This document shows positions 27,646 through 38,583 of a stretch of DNA of 64,000 bases, in pieces. The DNA is from an uncultured Reyranella sp. (GTDB lineage: Bacteria; Pseudomonadota; Alphaproteobacteria; Reyranellales; Reyranellaceae), in contig CALDNT010000300.1 in assembly GCA_937915145.1 (NCBI GenBank), positions 1-64,000 on the forward strand, given 5' to 3'. Both the position numbers and the translations under genes were made by a program. Every line of letters starts with the position of its first letter. The first letter of the stretch is position 1. The notes below the pieces were generated by a model that was not told the origin of the DNA, made no database searches, and saw only the letters and a program-made list of their open reading frames with translations.

Positions 27646-30600
27646 TCAGGCGACCATCCGGTCGGCTTCCTTAAGGTTGACCGAGACAAGCTGCGAAACA
27701 CCCTGCTCCGACATCGTGACGCCGTAGAGCCGGTCCATGCGCGCCATGGTGACACGATGGTGGGTGATGATCAGGAATCGCGTGTCGGTGCGACCGGCGA
27801 TGTCCTGCACCAGGGCACAGAAGCGCTCCACGTTGAGATCGTCGAGCGGCGCGTCCACCTCGTCCAGCACGCAGATCGGCGCCGGGTTGGTCATGAATAC
27901 CGCGAACAACAAGGACAGCGCCGTCAGGGCCTGCTCGCCGCCCGACAGCAGCGACATCACCTGTAGCTTCTTGCCCGGCGGGCTGGCGTGGATCTCCAGG
28001 CCAGCCTCGAGCGGATCCTCCGACTCGGTCAGCCTGAGTTCAGCCTTGCCGCCGCCGAACAGCTTGGTGAACAGCTGCTGGAAGTGGCCGCTCACCTGCT
28101 CGAAGGCGACGACGAAACGCTCGCGGCCTTCGCGGTTGAGGCTCTGGATGCCTTGACGCAACCGGCCGATGGCGGCGACCAGGTCGTCGCGCTCGGAAGT
28201 CATGCCGGTGATCTGCTGTTCCAGTTCGTCGGCTTCCTCCTCGGCCCGCAGATTGACCGCGCCCATGGTCTCGCGCTCGTGGACCAGGCGCTCGAGCCGG
28301 TGTTCGGCCTTGTCGATCTCCGGCAGCTCGTCGAGCGACTGGACTTCGGCCAGCGCCAGCACGCCGTCGGGCTCGCACCGCAACCGTTCGGCGATGCGCT
28401 CGACAATGGCCTCGCGGTCCTTGGTCGCCTGCTCGACCTGACCCTCGCGCCGCACCCGGCTTTCGCGGGCACCCGCCAGTTCACCTTCGGCCTGGCGCAA
28501 CGCCTTGTCGGCCTCGCCGAGCCGGGTTTCACCCACGGCCAGCCGGTCGGCCGCTTGCTGACGGTTGACCTCGGCCTTGGCGATCTCCTCACCAAGGGTC
28601 AGCCGGTTGGCCTCGATCTCGGCGGGCTTGGCTTCCAGTTCGGCGATTGCCGCCGCGATCTGCTCGCGACGGGCATCGAGCTCGACGATCTGTCCGTCGG
28701 CATCGCTGAGACGCGTGCTCCAGCCGGCGTGATCCTGGGCGATCTGGCCGAGGCGCTCGACCCGCATCGCTGCTTCACGGGCAAGTCGGTCGCAGGTTCC
28801 CTCGGCATCGACCAGCGCGGCGCGCAGTTCGGCGATGGAAACGCGCAGGGTGCCGGCGGCAACCCGGTCGGCCTGGGTGTCGGAGATCGCCGACAGTCGG
28901 GCCTCGCGGAAGGTCCGGCGCATCTCGGCGTCGGCGATGTCGCCCGCGATCTCGACCCGCGTCCGTTCAATGCCGGCAAGCCGTGTACGAAGCTGGTCGG
29001 TGCGGCGCGCCACCTCGCTATGACGGTCTCGCGCGGCGGTCGCGGCACGCTCGGCGCCAGCTATGGCGGTCTGGGCGGCCCGCTCGGCCGCCCGGGTCGC
29101 CTCGCCGGCGTCTTCGGTCTTGCGCCGCGCGGTCGCGGCCACGCCGCGTTCGTGCTGGCGGGCCTGTTCGACACAAGCCCGTTCGGCGTTGCGGGCGGCC
29201 GTCAGCCAACCGGCTTCAGCGTCGACCCGAGCCTGCTCGGCGGTCTGTTCGACCGCGACCGCATCGATCTGCAGACGGATTTCAGCGAGACGGTTGCGCT
29301 GGCTGAGCCGCACGGCGGCGGTTGACGGCGCGCCTGCCCGCATCGTGTAGCCGTCCCAGCGCCACACCGCGCCCTCGCGCGTGACAAGTTGCTGGCCTGG
29401 TTCGAGCGCGGCCTGCAACGCCTCGCCCGTGGCGTCGTCGGCAACGATGCCGATGAAGGCGATGCGGCGCGCCAGTTCGGGCAGGGCCTCGACATGAGCA
29501 CCAAGCGGGGTGGCCCCAGACGGCAACGCGGGCGCCACGACGAACGGCGCGAGCTGCAGCCAGTGGGCCGGCGCGCCCCGGTCGGACGAGGCTTCAAGGT
29601 CGTCACCGAACGCCGCGCCCAAGGCCTTCTCGAAGCCCGGCTCGACGGTCAATGCATCGAGCAACGGCGGCCACAACGAACCGGCCGCCGACTTCAGCGC
29701 CGCGGCGACGCCGGCCTCCTCGGCACGCAGCTTGGTCAGTCGCGCATTGGTCTTCTGCACGATTTCAACCGCTGCGGCATGGCTCGCCTCGGCGGCCTGG
29801 CGCTCGGCGGCGCGGGCGCGCTCCATGTCGATGCGCTCGGCCTCGGCCTTGGCCACCGCCAGACGCGCCGCGTCGGACTCGTAGCGCGCGGCCTCGCGCG
29901 CAGCCTCGATCGTCTCCTGGCCGTGGCGGCGCGCGCCGTCGAGGGACGCGCGGGCGGCCTCGAGGGCGGCCTCGACCTCCGGCAGTGCCGGCAGGCCCGC
30001 CAGCTCGGTTTCGATCTGGTTCTGCTGGACGACCACCTCGTCACGCCGGACCACGAGCCGGCGCAGGCGCTCCTGCAGTTCGGCGATCTCGCGGCCGACG
30101 CTCTGGCGCAGCGCCTCGTCGTCGGCAATCTGCCGGGTCAGGCGGTCGTGTTCGGTCTCGGCCGCGACAGTGTCGGCCTGGGCGACATCGCGCGCCTGCT
30201 GGGCAGCGGCGGCACGATCCTCTTCGCCCACCTGCTCCTGCTCGAGCCGGCTGCGCTGGCTGCCGAGATCGGCGGTCGCGGCTTCGGCGTCGCCCTTGCG
30301 GCCGCGCTCGCGGGCAAGGTCCGCATCAGCCTGCCGCAGGCGGGTCTCCGCGTCCTGCTGGGCCTGGGCGACCCGTTCGGCTTCGGCGGTCAGCGCATCG
30401 TGCGCCACGCGCAGGCGCTGGAGCGCCGCGGCCGCGGCGGCCTCGTCGTTGCGCAGCGGCGGCAGTGCGGTCGCGGCTTCGGCCTGGGCCGTCGTTGAAA
30501 GCCCGACCAGGCGCGTCAGATCGGTCACCTGGGCCTCGGCCTCGCGCAGGCGCTCGCCCGACTCTGCAAGTTCGCGCTCCGCCGTCGCGAGCTTCAGCGC

Positions 30601-31302
30601 CAGCACGGCGGCTTCGGCACGGCGGATATGGTCGGAAAGATTGCGGTAACGGCTGGCCTGGCGAGCCTGGCGCTTCAGTCCCTTGTGCTGCTCCTCCAGG
30701 GCCACCAGCACGTCCTGCACGCGCGCCAAATTCTGTTCGGCGGCCCGCAGACGCAGTTCGGCCTCGTGGCGGCGGGCATAGAGGCCGGTGATGCCGGCGG
30801 CCTCGTCAATGATGGAACGGCGATCAGCCGGCTTGGCATTGATGATCGTGCCGATACGGCCCTGACTCACCATAGCGGTCGAACGCGATCCGGTCGCGGC
30901 ATCGGCAAAGAGCGTCTGGACGTCGCGGGCACGGATCTCGCGACCGTTGACCGAATAGGCCGAGCCATGGCCGCGTTCGATGCGGCGCATGACGTCGAGC
31001 TGGTCGGTGTCGTTCACCATTGCCGGCGCGGTTCGGGTCTTGTTGTCGAGCGTCAGCATCACCTCGGCGATGTTGCGCGCCGGGCGCGTACCGGCACCGG
31101 CAAAGATGACATCCTCCATTTCGCTGCCGCGCATCTGCTTGGCCGACGTCTCCCCCATCACCCACTTCAGCGCCTCGACGAGGTTCGACTTGCCGCAGCC
31201 GTTGGGGCCGACGATGCCGGTCATGCCGGACTCGATGGCGAGCTCCGTCGGATCGACGAAGGACTTGAAGCCGGAGAGCCGGAGCTTGTCGAACTGGACC
31301 AT
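27646..31302 (-). CDS. smc: Chromosome segregation protein SMC
   Basis: The 1218-aa protein has Walker A at residues 32-39 (GPNGCGKS), two long coiled coils separated by a hinge near residues 520-650, and the C-terminal head with signature LLSGGEQALT (from residue 1118) and Walker B ICVLDEVDAPLDD. It should fold back into a V-shaped dimer and, with ScpA and ScpB (not in the window), extrude chromosome loops. The coil is rich in Ala, Glu, Arg and Gln. It starts 23 bp after a DsbA-like gene. Length and domain order are normal. Confidence 0.97.
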   Translation of the reverse strand: MVQFDKLRLSGFKSFVDPTELAIESGMTGIVGPNGCGKSNLVEALKWVMGETSAKQMRGSEMEDVIFAGAGTRPARNIAEVMLTLDNKTRTAPAMVNDTDQLDVMRRIERGHGSAYSVNGREIRARDVQTLFADAATGSRSTAMVSQGRIGTIINAKPADRRSIIDEAAGITGLYARRHEAELRLRAAEQNLARVQDVLVALEEQHKGLKRQARQASRYRNLSDHIRRAEAAVLALKLATAERELAESGERLREAEAQVTDLTRLVGLSTTAQAEAATALPPLRNDEAAAAAALQRLRVAHDALTAEAERVAQAQQDAETRLRQADADLARERGRKGDAEAATADLGSQRSRLEQEQVGEEDRAAAAQQARDVAQADTVAAETEHDRLTRQIADDEALRQSVGREIAELQERLRRLVVRRDEVVVQQNQIETELAGLPALPEVEAALEAARASLDGARRHGQETIEAAREAARYESDAARLAVAKAEAERIDMERARAAERQAAEASHAAAVEIVQKTNARLTKLRAEEAGVAAALKSAAGSLWPPLLDALTVEPGFEKALGAAFGDDLEASSDRGAPAHWLQLAPFVVAPALPSGATPLGAHVEALPELARRIAFIGIVADDATGEALQAALEPGQQLVTREGAVWRWDGYTMRAGAPSTAAVRLSQRNRLAEIRLQIDAVAVEQTAEQARVDAEAGWLTAARNAERACVEQARQHERGVAATARRKTEDAGEATRAAERAAQTAIAGAERAATAARDRHSEVARRTDQLRTRLAGIERTRVEIAGDIADAEMRRTFREARLSAISDTQADRVAAGTLRVSIAELRAALVDAEGTCDRLAREAAMRVERLGQIAQDHAGWSTRLSDADGQIVELDARREQIAAAIAELEAKPAEIEANRLTLGEEIAKAEVNRQQAADRLAVGETRLGEADKALRQAEGELAGARESRVRREGQVEQATKDREAIVERIAERLRCEPDGVLALAEVQSLDELPEIDKAEHRLERLVHERETMGAVNLRAEEEADELEQQITGMTSERDDLVAAIGRLRQGIQSLNREGRERFVVAFEQVSGHFQQLFTKLFGGGKAELRLTESEDPLEAGLEIHASPPGKKLQVMSLLSGGEQALTALSLLFAVFMTNPAPICVLDEVDAPLDDLNVERFCALVQDIAGRTDTRFLIITHHRVTMARMDRLYGVTMSEQGVSQLVSVNLKEADRMVA

Positions 31303-31324: not shown

Positions 31325-31984
31325 TTACTTGACGAGTTTGCTGATTGCGCCGTCGAGGTCCTCGACCGAACGCGACCCGCGATAGAGCTGACCGCCGATG
31401 AACAGGGTGGGCGTCGCACTGACGCCGAGCGTCTCGCCGCTGCGATAGTCGGACAGTACGGCGTTGAGCATGGCGTCGTTGGCGAGGCAGGCCTTGATTT
31501 CGTTTTCACCGAGCCCGGCGATGCGCAGCGGCTTGCCCAGTTCGGCGATCGGATCGGCCGCCGTGGCCCAGGTCGGCTGGCCGCGGAAAATGATGTCGAG
31601 GACGGGAAAGAACCGGTCGTTGCCGGCGCACTCCGCGATCTGGGCCGCCTTGACCGCCACCTGGTCGAGCGGAAAATCGCGGTAGACGAGCTTCACCTTG
31701 CCGGTGTCGATCCACTTCTTCTTGATCTCGGGCAGGATCTGGATGTGGAAGTGCGCGCAGTGCGAACAGGTGAGCGAGGCATATTCGACGATCGTGACCG
31801 GCGCCTTGGGATCGCCCAGGACGTGATCCGTCGGCAGGACGGCCAAGAGGGCAGCCTTGTCCGGCGTTGCCGCCACGGCTACCGGCGCCGGGCCTGCCGC
31901 GGGCGGGCGGGTGCCGAAATAGACGCCAGCCACAATCGCGGCCACCGCCACGGTCCCGCCGGCGACGATCAAGATATTCCTCAT
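31325..31984 (-). CDS. DsbA family thiol-disulfide oxidoreductase
   Basis: The 219-aa protein has a membrane anchor or signal (RNILIVAGGTVAVAAIVAGVY), then the thioredoxin fold with a CSHC active site (Cys73 and Cys76 in YASLTCSHCAHFH). A cis-Pro region is seen in SATPTLFIGGQLYRG. It should introduce or shuffle disulfides in the periplasm. The start at 31984 (MRNILIV) is better than the upstream one at 32020. It is a paralogue of the C-terminal domain of the adjacent DciA-DsbA fusion, and both sit just upstream of smc. Confidence 0.88.
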   Translation of the reverse strand: MRNILIVAGGTVAVAAIVAGVYFGTRPPAAGPAPVAVAATPDKAALLAVLPTDHVLGDPKAPVTIVEYASLTCSHCAHFHIQILPEIKKKWIDTGKVKLVYRDFPLDQVAVKAAQIAECAGNDRFFPVLDIIFRGQPTWATAADPIAELGKPLRIAGLGENEIKACLANDAMLNAVLSDYRSGETLGVSATPTLFIGGQLYRGSRSVEDLDGAISKLVK

Positions 31985-32038
31985 TCCGTCTTCCTCTCCA
32001 CTACATCTTGGGAATTTCACCTGTGGGGAGTCAAACGA

Positions 32039-33154
32039 TTACCGTCCCACCTGGCGTAAAATTGCGGCGATCGCGTCGATCCCCCCCGGATTCCCGTAAA
32101 ATTCCTCGTTGATGAACAAGGTGGGCGTGAAAGTGACGCGGAGCGCCTGGCCGGACTGCACATCGGCCACGACTTTGTCCAAAGCGCGGTCGTCGGCGAA
32201 GCAGGTCTGGGCCGACGCCGGCGTCACGCCCTGGGGCGCCAGGACCTTGACCATCTCAACTTCCGGATCGCCCGCGGTCAGCCATTCGACCTGGCCGCGA
32301 AACAGCGCCTCGGTCGTGGCATAGAACCTATCCGGGGGGACACATTCGGACAGAAGTGCGGCGCGGGTGGCCACCTGATCCGAAGGAAAGTGACGGTGGA
32401 TCAGGCGCAGGCGGCCGGTGTCGATCCATTCCTTTCGCAGTGTCGGCAGGACGGCGATGTAGAAATTGGCGCAGTGCGGACAGGTGAACGAGGCGTAGTC
32501 GATCAAGGTGTTGGGGGCGTCGACCTTGCCCAGGATGTGATCGCCGGGAAGCGCGGTGAGCAGCTTGCTGCGTGACGGATCCTGGGCCCGGACGTCGTCG
32601 GCGACGAACAGCGCGCCCAGCGCCGCCACGAGAACGCCGCGCCGCTTCAGCGATACGCGAGCCCCCAGCCGCGCCAGGGCCGCCCTGAGTTCAGGATCCT
32701 TCACCGCGGCAGCACGGGTCGCGACCTCGGCCACTACCCGAGGATCCGGCTTGGCAATCGGCGGCGGGCCGGGCGGCGGGCGGACGATGGCGCCCTGCAC
32801 CAGGCGAATGTCGTCGATCATCCGGTGTCCGAAATAGGCGTTCACGCGTTCCACGAGTTGGCCGCTCCTGTGCTGGATTTCCAGAGCGGCAGCACCCGAG
32901 ACGCGCAGCCGAAGCGCCTGTCCGGCGCCATGGCCGCCGGCCTGGACGCTACGCGCACCCCGGCTGGCCAGCAGGGCGTCGGGGTGGGTCGTGCGGGCAA
33001 GCTCGGGGCCGACGATGGCCGACCACTCGGCGCGCAGACGCGCGATCGACGCGCCCTTGCCCGCTCCTTTGCCCGCCTTGGCGCGCCCCTGGACGATGCC
33101 GGACGTGAGCCGCTGGGCAAGACCGCCGATGGCACGGAAGCCGTTTTCCCGCAT
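32039..33154 (-). CDS. DciA (DUF721) - DsbA fusion protein
   Basis: One continuous 371-aa reading frame joins two normally separate genes. Residues 1-160 resemble DciA/DUF721 (NGFRAIGGLAQRLTSG, RAEWSAIVGPELARTTHP, RLRVSGAAALEIQHRSGQL), which in many bacteria loads the replicative helicase. Residues from about 195 form a DsbA thioredoxin fold with a CPHC active site (Cys225 and Cys228). Between them, residues 168-191 read like a signal peptide (SLKRRGVLVAALGALFVADD). The codon where a DsbA start would be expected is GTA (32654-32656), not ATG or GTG. The start at 33154 has AAAGGG upstream. See the finding on this fusion. Confidence 0.8.
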   Translation of the reverse strand: MRENGFRAIGGLAQRLTSGIVQGRAKAGKGAGKGASIARLRAEWSAIVGPELARTTHPDALLASRGARSVQAGGHGAGQALRLRVSGAAALEIQHRSGQLVERVNAYFGHRMIDDIRLVQGAIVRPPPGPPPIAKPDPRVVAEVATRAAAVKDPELRAALARLGARVSLKRRGVLVAALGALFVADDVRAQDPSRSKLLTALPGDHILGKVDAPNTLIDYASFTCPHCANFYIAVLPTLRKEWIDTGRLRLIHRHFPSDQVATRAALLSECVPPDRFYATTEALFRGQVEWLTAGDPEVEMVKVLAPQGVTPASAQTCFADDRALDKVVADVQSGQALRVTFTPTLFINEEFYGNPGGIDAIAAILRQVGR

Positions 33155-33212
33155 GGACCCTTTCAAACCCTGTGCCTGATGGCAGGCCCAATGGTACGTG
33201 AGGGGCCCTTAC

Positions 33213-34280
33213 ATGACCATGACCCACGCCCCCGATCACGCCGGCCGCCTGCTCGCCTGGTACGACAGGCATCGTCGCGCCCTGCCGTGGCGCGCACCTG
33301 CCGGAGCGCGCACCGAACCCTATCGCGTCTGGCTGTCGGAGATCATGCTGCAGCAGACGACGGTGGCCACGGTCGGCGACTATTACCGACGTTTCGTCGA
33401 ACGCTGGCCCACCGTCGAGGCGCTGGCCACCGCCCCGCTCGACGATGTGCTCTCGGCCTGGGCGGGCCTCGGCTACTACGCCCGCGCCCGCAATCTCCAT
33501 GCCTGTGCCCAAGCCGTGGCCGACCGGCACGGCGGACGCTTTCCCGAGGACGAGGTGGGCTTGCGCGCCCTGCCCGGCATCGGGCCCTACACCGCCGCCG
33601 CCATCCGGGCCATCGCCTTCGACCACAAGGCCTCGGCGGTCGACGGTAACGTCGAGCGCGTGATCGCCCGCCTGCAGGCGATCGAAACGCCGCTGCCCGA
33701 TGCCAAGATCGAGCTTCACCTGCGCGCCGCCGAGTTGGTGCCGGCCCGGCGTGCCGGCGACTACGCCCAGGCGATGATGGATCTCGGCGCCACCGTGTGC
33801 ACACCGCGCAGCCCGCGGTGCGTGATCTGCCCACTGGTCAACCGCTGCCGCGGCCGCAAGCGCGGCATCGCCGAGAGCCTGCCGCGTCGCCGGCCCAAGG
33901 CCGCGAAGCCGACCCGCCGCGGCCTCGCCTTCGTGCTGGCGCGCAAGGACGGCGCCATCCTGCTGCGCAAGCGACCGCCCAGGGGCCTGCTGGGCGGCAT
34001 GGACGAGGTGCCGTCGAGCCCCTGGCGCGAGGGCAAGTTCACCGCCGCCGATGCACTCGACTTGGCACCAGTGCCGGCCCGCTGGACGCTCCTCGACGGG
34101 CTGGTGCGCCACACTTTTACGCACTTCCACCTCGAACTCGCCGTGGCCCGGGCGACCGCCACCACCGGCCGGCTGGCCCAACTGGCACCGGGGACGGTGT
34201 GGTGCACCCTCGACCGCCTCACCGAGCGCGCCCTGCCCACCGTGATGCGCAAAGTCATCGCCAAGGCCACCCTTTCCTGA
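33213..34280 (+). CDS. mutY: A/G-specific adenine glycosylase MutY
   Basis: The 355-aa enzyme removes adenine mispaired with 8-oxoguanine. Seen are LSEIMLQQTTVATVGDYYRR, the helix-hairpin-helix ALPGIGPYTAAAIRAIAFD, the catalytic Asp in SAVDGNVERV and the [4Fe-4S] cysteines in CTPRSPRCVICPLVNRC (C-X6-C-X2-C-X5-C). The C-terminal half, from about residue 235, is the NUDIX-like 8-oxoG recognition domain (GAILLRKRPPRGLLGGMDEV). The start at 33213 has GAGGGG 8 nt upstream; a GTG at 33198 would be longer. It diverges from the DciA-DsbA gene. Confidence 0.95.
   Translation: MTMTHAPDHAGRLLAWYDRHRRALPWRAPAGARTEPYRVWLSEIMLQQTTVATVGDYYRRFVERWPTVEALATAPLDDVLSAWAGLGYYARARNLHACAQAVADRHGGRFPEDEVGLRALPGIGPYTAAAIRAIAFDHKASAVDGNVERVIARLQAIETPLPDAKIELHLRAAELVPARRAGDYAQAMMDLGATVCTPRSPRCVICPLVNRCRGRKRGIAESLPRRRPKAAKPTRRGLAFVLARKDGAILLRKRPPRGLLGGMDEVPSSPWREGKFTAADALDLAPVPARWTLLDGLVRHTFTHFHLELAVARATATTGRLAQLAPGTVWCTLDRLTERALPTVMRKVIAKATLS

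Positions 34281-37407: not shown

Positions 37408-38583
<1,176 letters not shown>

Follow-up and report, generated by a model that had tools for sequence, protein, structure and literature searches.

A DciA-DsbA fusion gene fixed in Reyranella and its sister genus, with a probable Tat-like signal segment between the two domains

The gene order mutY-dciA-trx-smc has been described for Alphaproteobacteria (PMC5109545), and in Caulobacter crescentus dciA lies beside mutY and encodes a DUF721 domain with a C-terminal extension that holds a three-leucine DnaB-binding helix (PMC9825169, PMC12547741). L163, L167 and L170 are the residues by which this extension binds DnaB, and the extension is required in vivo; a tag added to the C terminus of Caulobacter DciA has served to degrade the protein under control in living cells (PMC9825169), indicating that a C-terminal extension need not kill function. 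Alphaproteobacterial DsbA proteins normally start with a signal of their own. An export signal inside a protein is known from the Streptomyces Rieske protein, where an internal Tat signal serves the C-terminal domain and the N-terminal part is a membrane protein (PMC13186574). In hepatitis C virus, at the core-E1 junction, the signal peptide of the next protein forms the end of a cytoplasmic protein and is cut by signal peptidase and then trimmed (PMC5402940); the likeness of that viral system of the eukaryotic endoplasmic reticulum to the locus described here is one of working only, with no relation between the two.

The window, by which we mean the whole 64,000-nucleotide stretch analysed, comes from an uncultured Reyranella sp. 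and has the alphaproteobacterial order with identical neighbour partners, including the divergent mutY beside dciA (33213-34280, plus strand; Pfam HhH-GPD and NUDIX_4) and smc (27646-31302, minus strand; assigned from frame and sequence). The described genes are separate, whereas here dciA and an extra dsbA form one gene, and a second dsbA precedes smc. This second copy, dsbA2 (31325-31984, minus strand), is a separate paralogue with its own ATG and an N-terminal hydrophobic anchor, and is the positional orthologue of the dsbA of unfused genera. Near mutY, a probable CcrM-type adenine DNA methyltransferase is predicted, from its sequence alone, at 37408-38532 on the minus strand.

The fusion gene, dciA-dsbA1 (32039-33154, minus strand), is an open frame of 371 codons from the ATG at 33154 to the last sense codon at 32042, with the stop TAA at 32041-32039; an alternative start, TTG at 33166, would give a 375-aa version. 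Residues 27-118 (32801-33076, minus strand) form the DciA (DUF721) domain, which scored 43.2 bits against Pfam PF05258 (cut-off 24; 45.8 bits in the genome search) and gave a weak match to the solved DciA domain 7ykm in a sequence profile search (E 0.012). The DsbA domain, residues 203-366 (32057-32548, minus strand), falls in Thioredoxin_4 with 108.3 bits against a cut-off of 23.2, Pfam DSBA (PF01323) remaining below its curated cut-off (20.3 versus 25.6 bits), and carries CPHC at residues 225-228 (32471-32482, minus strand). In an AlphaFold model made with 49 relatives the DciA domain is compact over most of residues 34-120, residues 154-167 form a helix, residues 170-192 are disordered, and the DsbA part is mostly above 90 in confidence. 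The matches listed in a fold search with the whole model were DsbA proteins and bear on that half of the model only; the DsbA part shares both its fold and a CxxC with Wolbachia alpha-DsbA1 (PDB 3f4t; Z 23.7, rmsd 1.8 over 179 residues, 28% identity), although it is preceded by DciA in Reyranella.

A family search with the whole fusion protein, in which each genome was the representative of its own species, found the fusion in 59 of 65 Reyranella genomes, and all 59 run through the join without a stop, four of the matches being cut by contig ends. The sole genome of the sister genus (G458; named record L077) also carries it, which brings the total to 60 genomes with an unbroken gene, well beyond what chance would give, among them the cultured Reyranella massiliensis 521, R. 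soli, R. aquatilis and Enhydrobacter aerosaccus, as well as single-contig genomes. The fusion is thus fixed in Reyranella and its sister genus. Six Reyranella drafts, 60-95% complete and of uneven quality, gave no match to the fusion, nor to DciA in an order-wide search, and we presume that these assemblies lack the locus. The two genes are separate in seven other genomes of the family (G196, G459 and G461; G427; G428, G430 and G431) and in G037, the sole genome sampled from the other family of the order. Convergent fusions elsewhere in Alphaproteobacteria were sought in a non-exhaustive class-wide sample; among the matches listed, the regions fetched from other families had no frame with both domains. 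Since the genome that holds the window is a 317-contig draft, one might suspect an error of sequencing or assembly, or an accident that befell a single genome recently, but with 60 genomes sharing the fusion, including cultured strains and single-contig genomes, such an origin is practically impossible and was rejected. Genomes of the order that gave a match encode a single DciA each, which makes the fusion the cell's helicase loader; that the fused DciA loads DnaB on DNA as an essential loader is likely, given its single copy in this genome and in all matched relatives.

Statistics at the join refer to 55 distinct full-length fusions. The C-terminal DnaB-binding helix of DciA occupies residues 154-167 (32654-32695, minus strand), and its leucines L156, L160 and L163 (i, i+4, i+7) are invariant in all 55, with the spacing of Caulobacter L163, L167 and L170. 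Unfused DciA proteins of the family end ...DDALRQALERLGRAILTRR* or similar and fused members read ...KDPELRAALARLGARI-xxRRGxLLGxLGALxxxxxxRAQ, which identifies the helix as DciA's own C terminus. Caulobacter DciA stops about 10 residues past the helix, whereas in Reyranella the signal-like segment and the DsbA domain follow. The DsbA half has a CxxC in 55/55 fusions (as CPHC in 45) and the Thr-Pro of the cis-Pro loop in all of them; the functional residues of both halves are intact. Values of pN/pS were 0.17 for DciA, 0.55 for the free linker, 0.14 for the DnaB helix, 0.36 for the signal-like segment and 0.29 for DsbA, as fits translation and selection right across the join, which is itself under selection. 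Neither a start codon nor a ribosome site at the join is conserved among the fused relatives, and a programmed frameshift was rejected, there being no conserved alternative-frame stop at the join.

The codon GTA at 32656-32654, which the first-pass annotation had taken for the lost start of a DsbA gene, was correctly placed by it, but the codon encodes V167, the final residue of the helix in the model, and aligns with the helix of unfused DciA. Codons in this column were ATC in 30 fusions, GTG in 10, GTC in 9, ATT in 3, and GTA, ATA and CTT in one each, so that isoleucine is encoded in 34 of 55, and no fusion has a stop ahead of it. We therefore rejected GTA as a lost start.

The way in which the fusion arose can be read from the unfused members of the family (n = 7), where the gap from the dciA stop to the dsbA ATG measures 134-168 nt, occurs in all three phases, and holds a promoter-like element, a ribosome site and the ATG. 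The element, TTGACTCYCCACAGG-N-CCCAAGATGT, lies shortly upstream of the dsbA ATG and precedes dsbA in 7/7. Its counterpart in the window, TTGACTCCCCACAGG-N7-CCCAAGATGT (32003-32034, minus strand), stands before dsbA2 and is conserved by comparison; the element matched once in the window and never in 100 shuffles. In 55/55 fused loci it lies after the stop of the fused gene and before the second dsbA, and it never occurs inside the fused gene. A sigma-70 consensus scan of 31900-33300 returned no promoter, the element having come from comparison. It is highly conserved across Reyranellaceae and weakly so in the sister family. In a tree of DsbA domains the fused copies form one clade (100/100) inside the family, beside the downstream copies, and are a derived, faster-evolving paralogue with a stem branch of 0.72. 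The fusion has a single origin, and together the tree and the position of the element suggest that dsbA2 descends, by position, from the ancestral dsbA and that the fused dsbA is a tandem duplicate inserted between dciA and the promoter. An origin by a point change plus loss of a stop, as had been proposed, is contradicted by a duplicate that has no promoter, ribosome site or start next to a dsbA2 that keeps all three. A comparison with close relatives had also been proposed, and in it the fusion proved to be shared by 59/59 Reyranella genomes with the gene and by the sister genus; an ATG or GTG with a stop before it, named beforehand as refuting if seen in relatives with the same surroundings, occurs in other genera only. 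Lacking its own promoter, ribosome site and start, dsbA1 would be translated only as an extension of the single helicase loader.

Between the two domains lies the segment SLKRRGVLVAALGALFVADDVRA, residues 168-190 (32585-32653, minus strand), with a twin arginine at R171 and R172 (32639-32644, minus strand), an h-region of 12 residues and a closing Ala-Gln. The arginine pair is invariant in 55/55 fusions, with five arginine codons in use among them, as are A190 and Q191; of the 24 well-filled columns of the segment, these two pairs are the only invariant ones. The arginines are followed by any residue, then V/F/A/L/I, then L/V/M/F/I, a Tat-type pattern. The N-terminal position expected of such a signal is absent, the pair standing at residues 171-172 with no conserved start nearby. 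Among the fusions the h-region spans 12-16 residues, and its best 19-residue mean hydropathy is 1.26 (median) versus 2.32 for the anchor of dsbA2; a short, weak h-region behind a twin arginine is more in keeping with a cleavable signal of the Tat type than with an anchor. The candidate signal peptidase I cut, A190|Q191, has alanine at -1 in 55/55. The first-pass annotation had reported a single 371-aa frame with a DciA domain, a signal-like segment and a DsbA domain with CPHC; frame and Pfam results agree with it, and the fusion with a signal-like segment between its halves stands. The genome encodes TatC and DsbB, and the separate dsbA of G037 opens with a twin-arginine signal (NRRRVLRLAGG...AVAQ).

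These features lead us to an account that we consider moderately probable, in which one precursor carries an internal Tat-like signal, the DsbA domain is exported, cleavage takes place at A190|Q191, and DciA keeps a tail. The complete DciA, DnaB-binding helix included, would stay in the cytoplasm, and the Tat-like signal directly behind the helix would send the DsbA domain to the periplasm. Signal peptidase would most likely cut at A190|Q191 and release a soluble DsbA, leaving DciA with a short hydrophobic tail of about 23 residues that could be removed or loosely membrane-bound. Signal remnants can be substrates of intramembrane proteases, RseP among them. We infer that DsbA is exported, that Tat and not Sec is used, that the signal is cut, and what becomes of the DciA tail: the Tat-like signal, TatC, the signal of G037 and the Streptomyces precedent, which shares the internal twin-arginine signal for a C-terminal domain (predicted here), together favour export with cleavage at A190|Q191; the N-terminal part is a membrane protein in Streptomyces and a soluble DNA-replication protein in Reyranella.

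Several observations count against this account. It is rare for an internal signal to follow a soluble cytoplasmic domain of some 170 residues. Signal peptidase I is expected to prefer a small residue at -3, but the residues found there (L in 21, P in 11, V in 9, A in 9, S in 3 and T in 2 of the 55 fusions) are often Leu or Pro, which is not ideal, and in many members the h-region is followed by acidic residues (DD). The invariance of the twin arginine might in part reflect DciA's own basic tail: DciA of the nearest unfused genus ends in basic tails (SRRKG, LTRR, LGRR), although such a tail is missing from G037 and from the family's other unfused genera.

Cleavage at a signal site and a membrane-tethered loader were the two outcomes named at the outset, and they are the two that matter. 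For a tether, the signal would remain uncut as an anchor, and one permanent protein would hold DciA and DnaB at the inner membrane face and DsbA at the outer face. The DnaB-binding helix lies just 3-9 residues ahead of the twin arginine, and the genus shows no reversal of the fusion, as if the link itself mattered. The hydrophobic core, at 12-16 residues and a median hydropathy of 1.26, is nevertheless on the short and weak side for stable anchoring, the invariant Ala-Gln past the core is not something that an anchor would require, and dsbA2 offers a real anchor in the same locus (2.32); we think a permanent tether unlikely.

An internal start within dciA, which would yield, besides the fusion, a DsbA precursor of its own bearing an ordinary N-terminal signal, seems to us quite unlikely. 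Some relatives do offer a candidate: in about 10 of them an ATG accompanied by a ribosome-site-like sequence stands about 27 codons ahead of the twin arginine, in four an ATG stands two codons ahead of it, and in ten the GTA column reads GTG. None of these is conserved, however; in the window the sole candidates are GTGs at 30 and 20 codons, both lacking a ribosome site, and in L031 and L077 the last 35 codons before the arginines contain neither ATG nor GTG nor TTG. GTG is not clearly enriched among valine codons near the join (89/169 versus 694/1365 in the rest of the gene), and the fusion product would be made anyway. We regard as very unlikely a DsbA half that stays cytoplasmic as a redox switch on DciA or DnaB, with the signal as a relic: the derived, fast-evolving nature of the fused copy and the presence of dsbA2, which could do the periplasmic work, would suit it, but a relic would decay across the genus, and here the key residues of the signal are invariant while their neighbours vary.

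Both halves of the protein belong to known families, and what is new is a two-compartment combination fixed in a genus; a literature search for a DciA-DsbA fusion found no paper, which is not proof that it is undescribed. One would expect harm from tying a replication protein that is essential and cytoplasmic to an enzyme that is exported, but the fusion is retained throughout a genus that includes cultured strains. With a loader and an exported enzyme in one chain, the two must be either separated after translation or tied at the membrane, and if exported and cut the product would be a natural bacterial polyprotein across two compartments. It is doubtful, though conceivable, that the link is functional, the essential loader being born on or held at the membrane through its exported partner so that loading depends on export or cleavage. 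The fusion offers a test case for internal export signals, for helicase loading in contact with the membrane, and for a loader with an attachment right behind the helix that binds DnaB.

Two variations within the fused clade are worth recording. The nearest relative, L032:159, apparently the same genome as G452, encodes a 94% identical protein and has ATT in place of the window's dciA ATG; its start may be this ATT or an in-frame TTG four codons upstream, the same TTG that the window has at 33166. In the two deepest fused members, L107 and L077, the DsbA active site reads CWSC and CAGC rather than CPHC, suggesting that redox properties may differ early in the fused clade.
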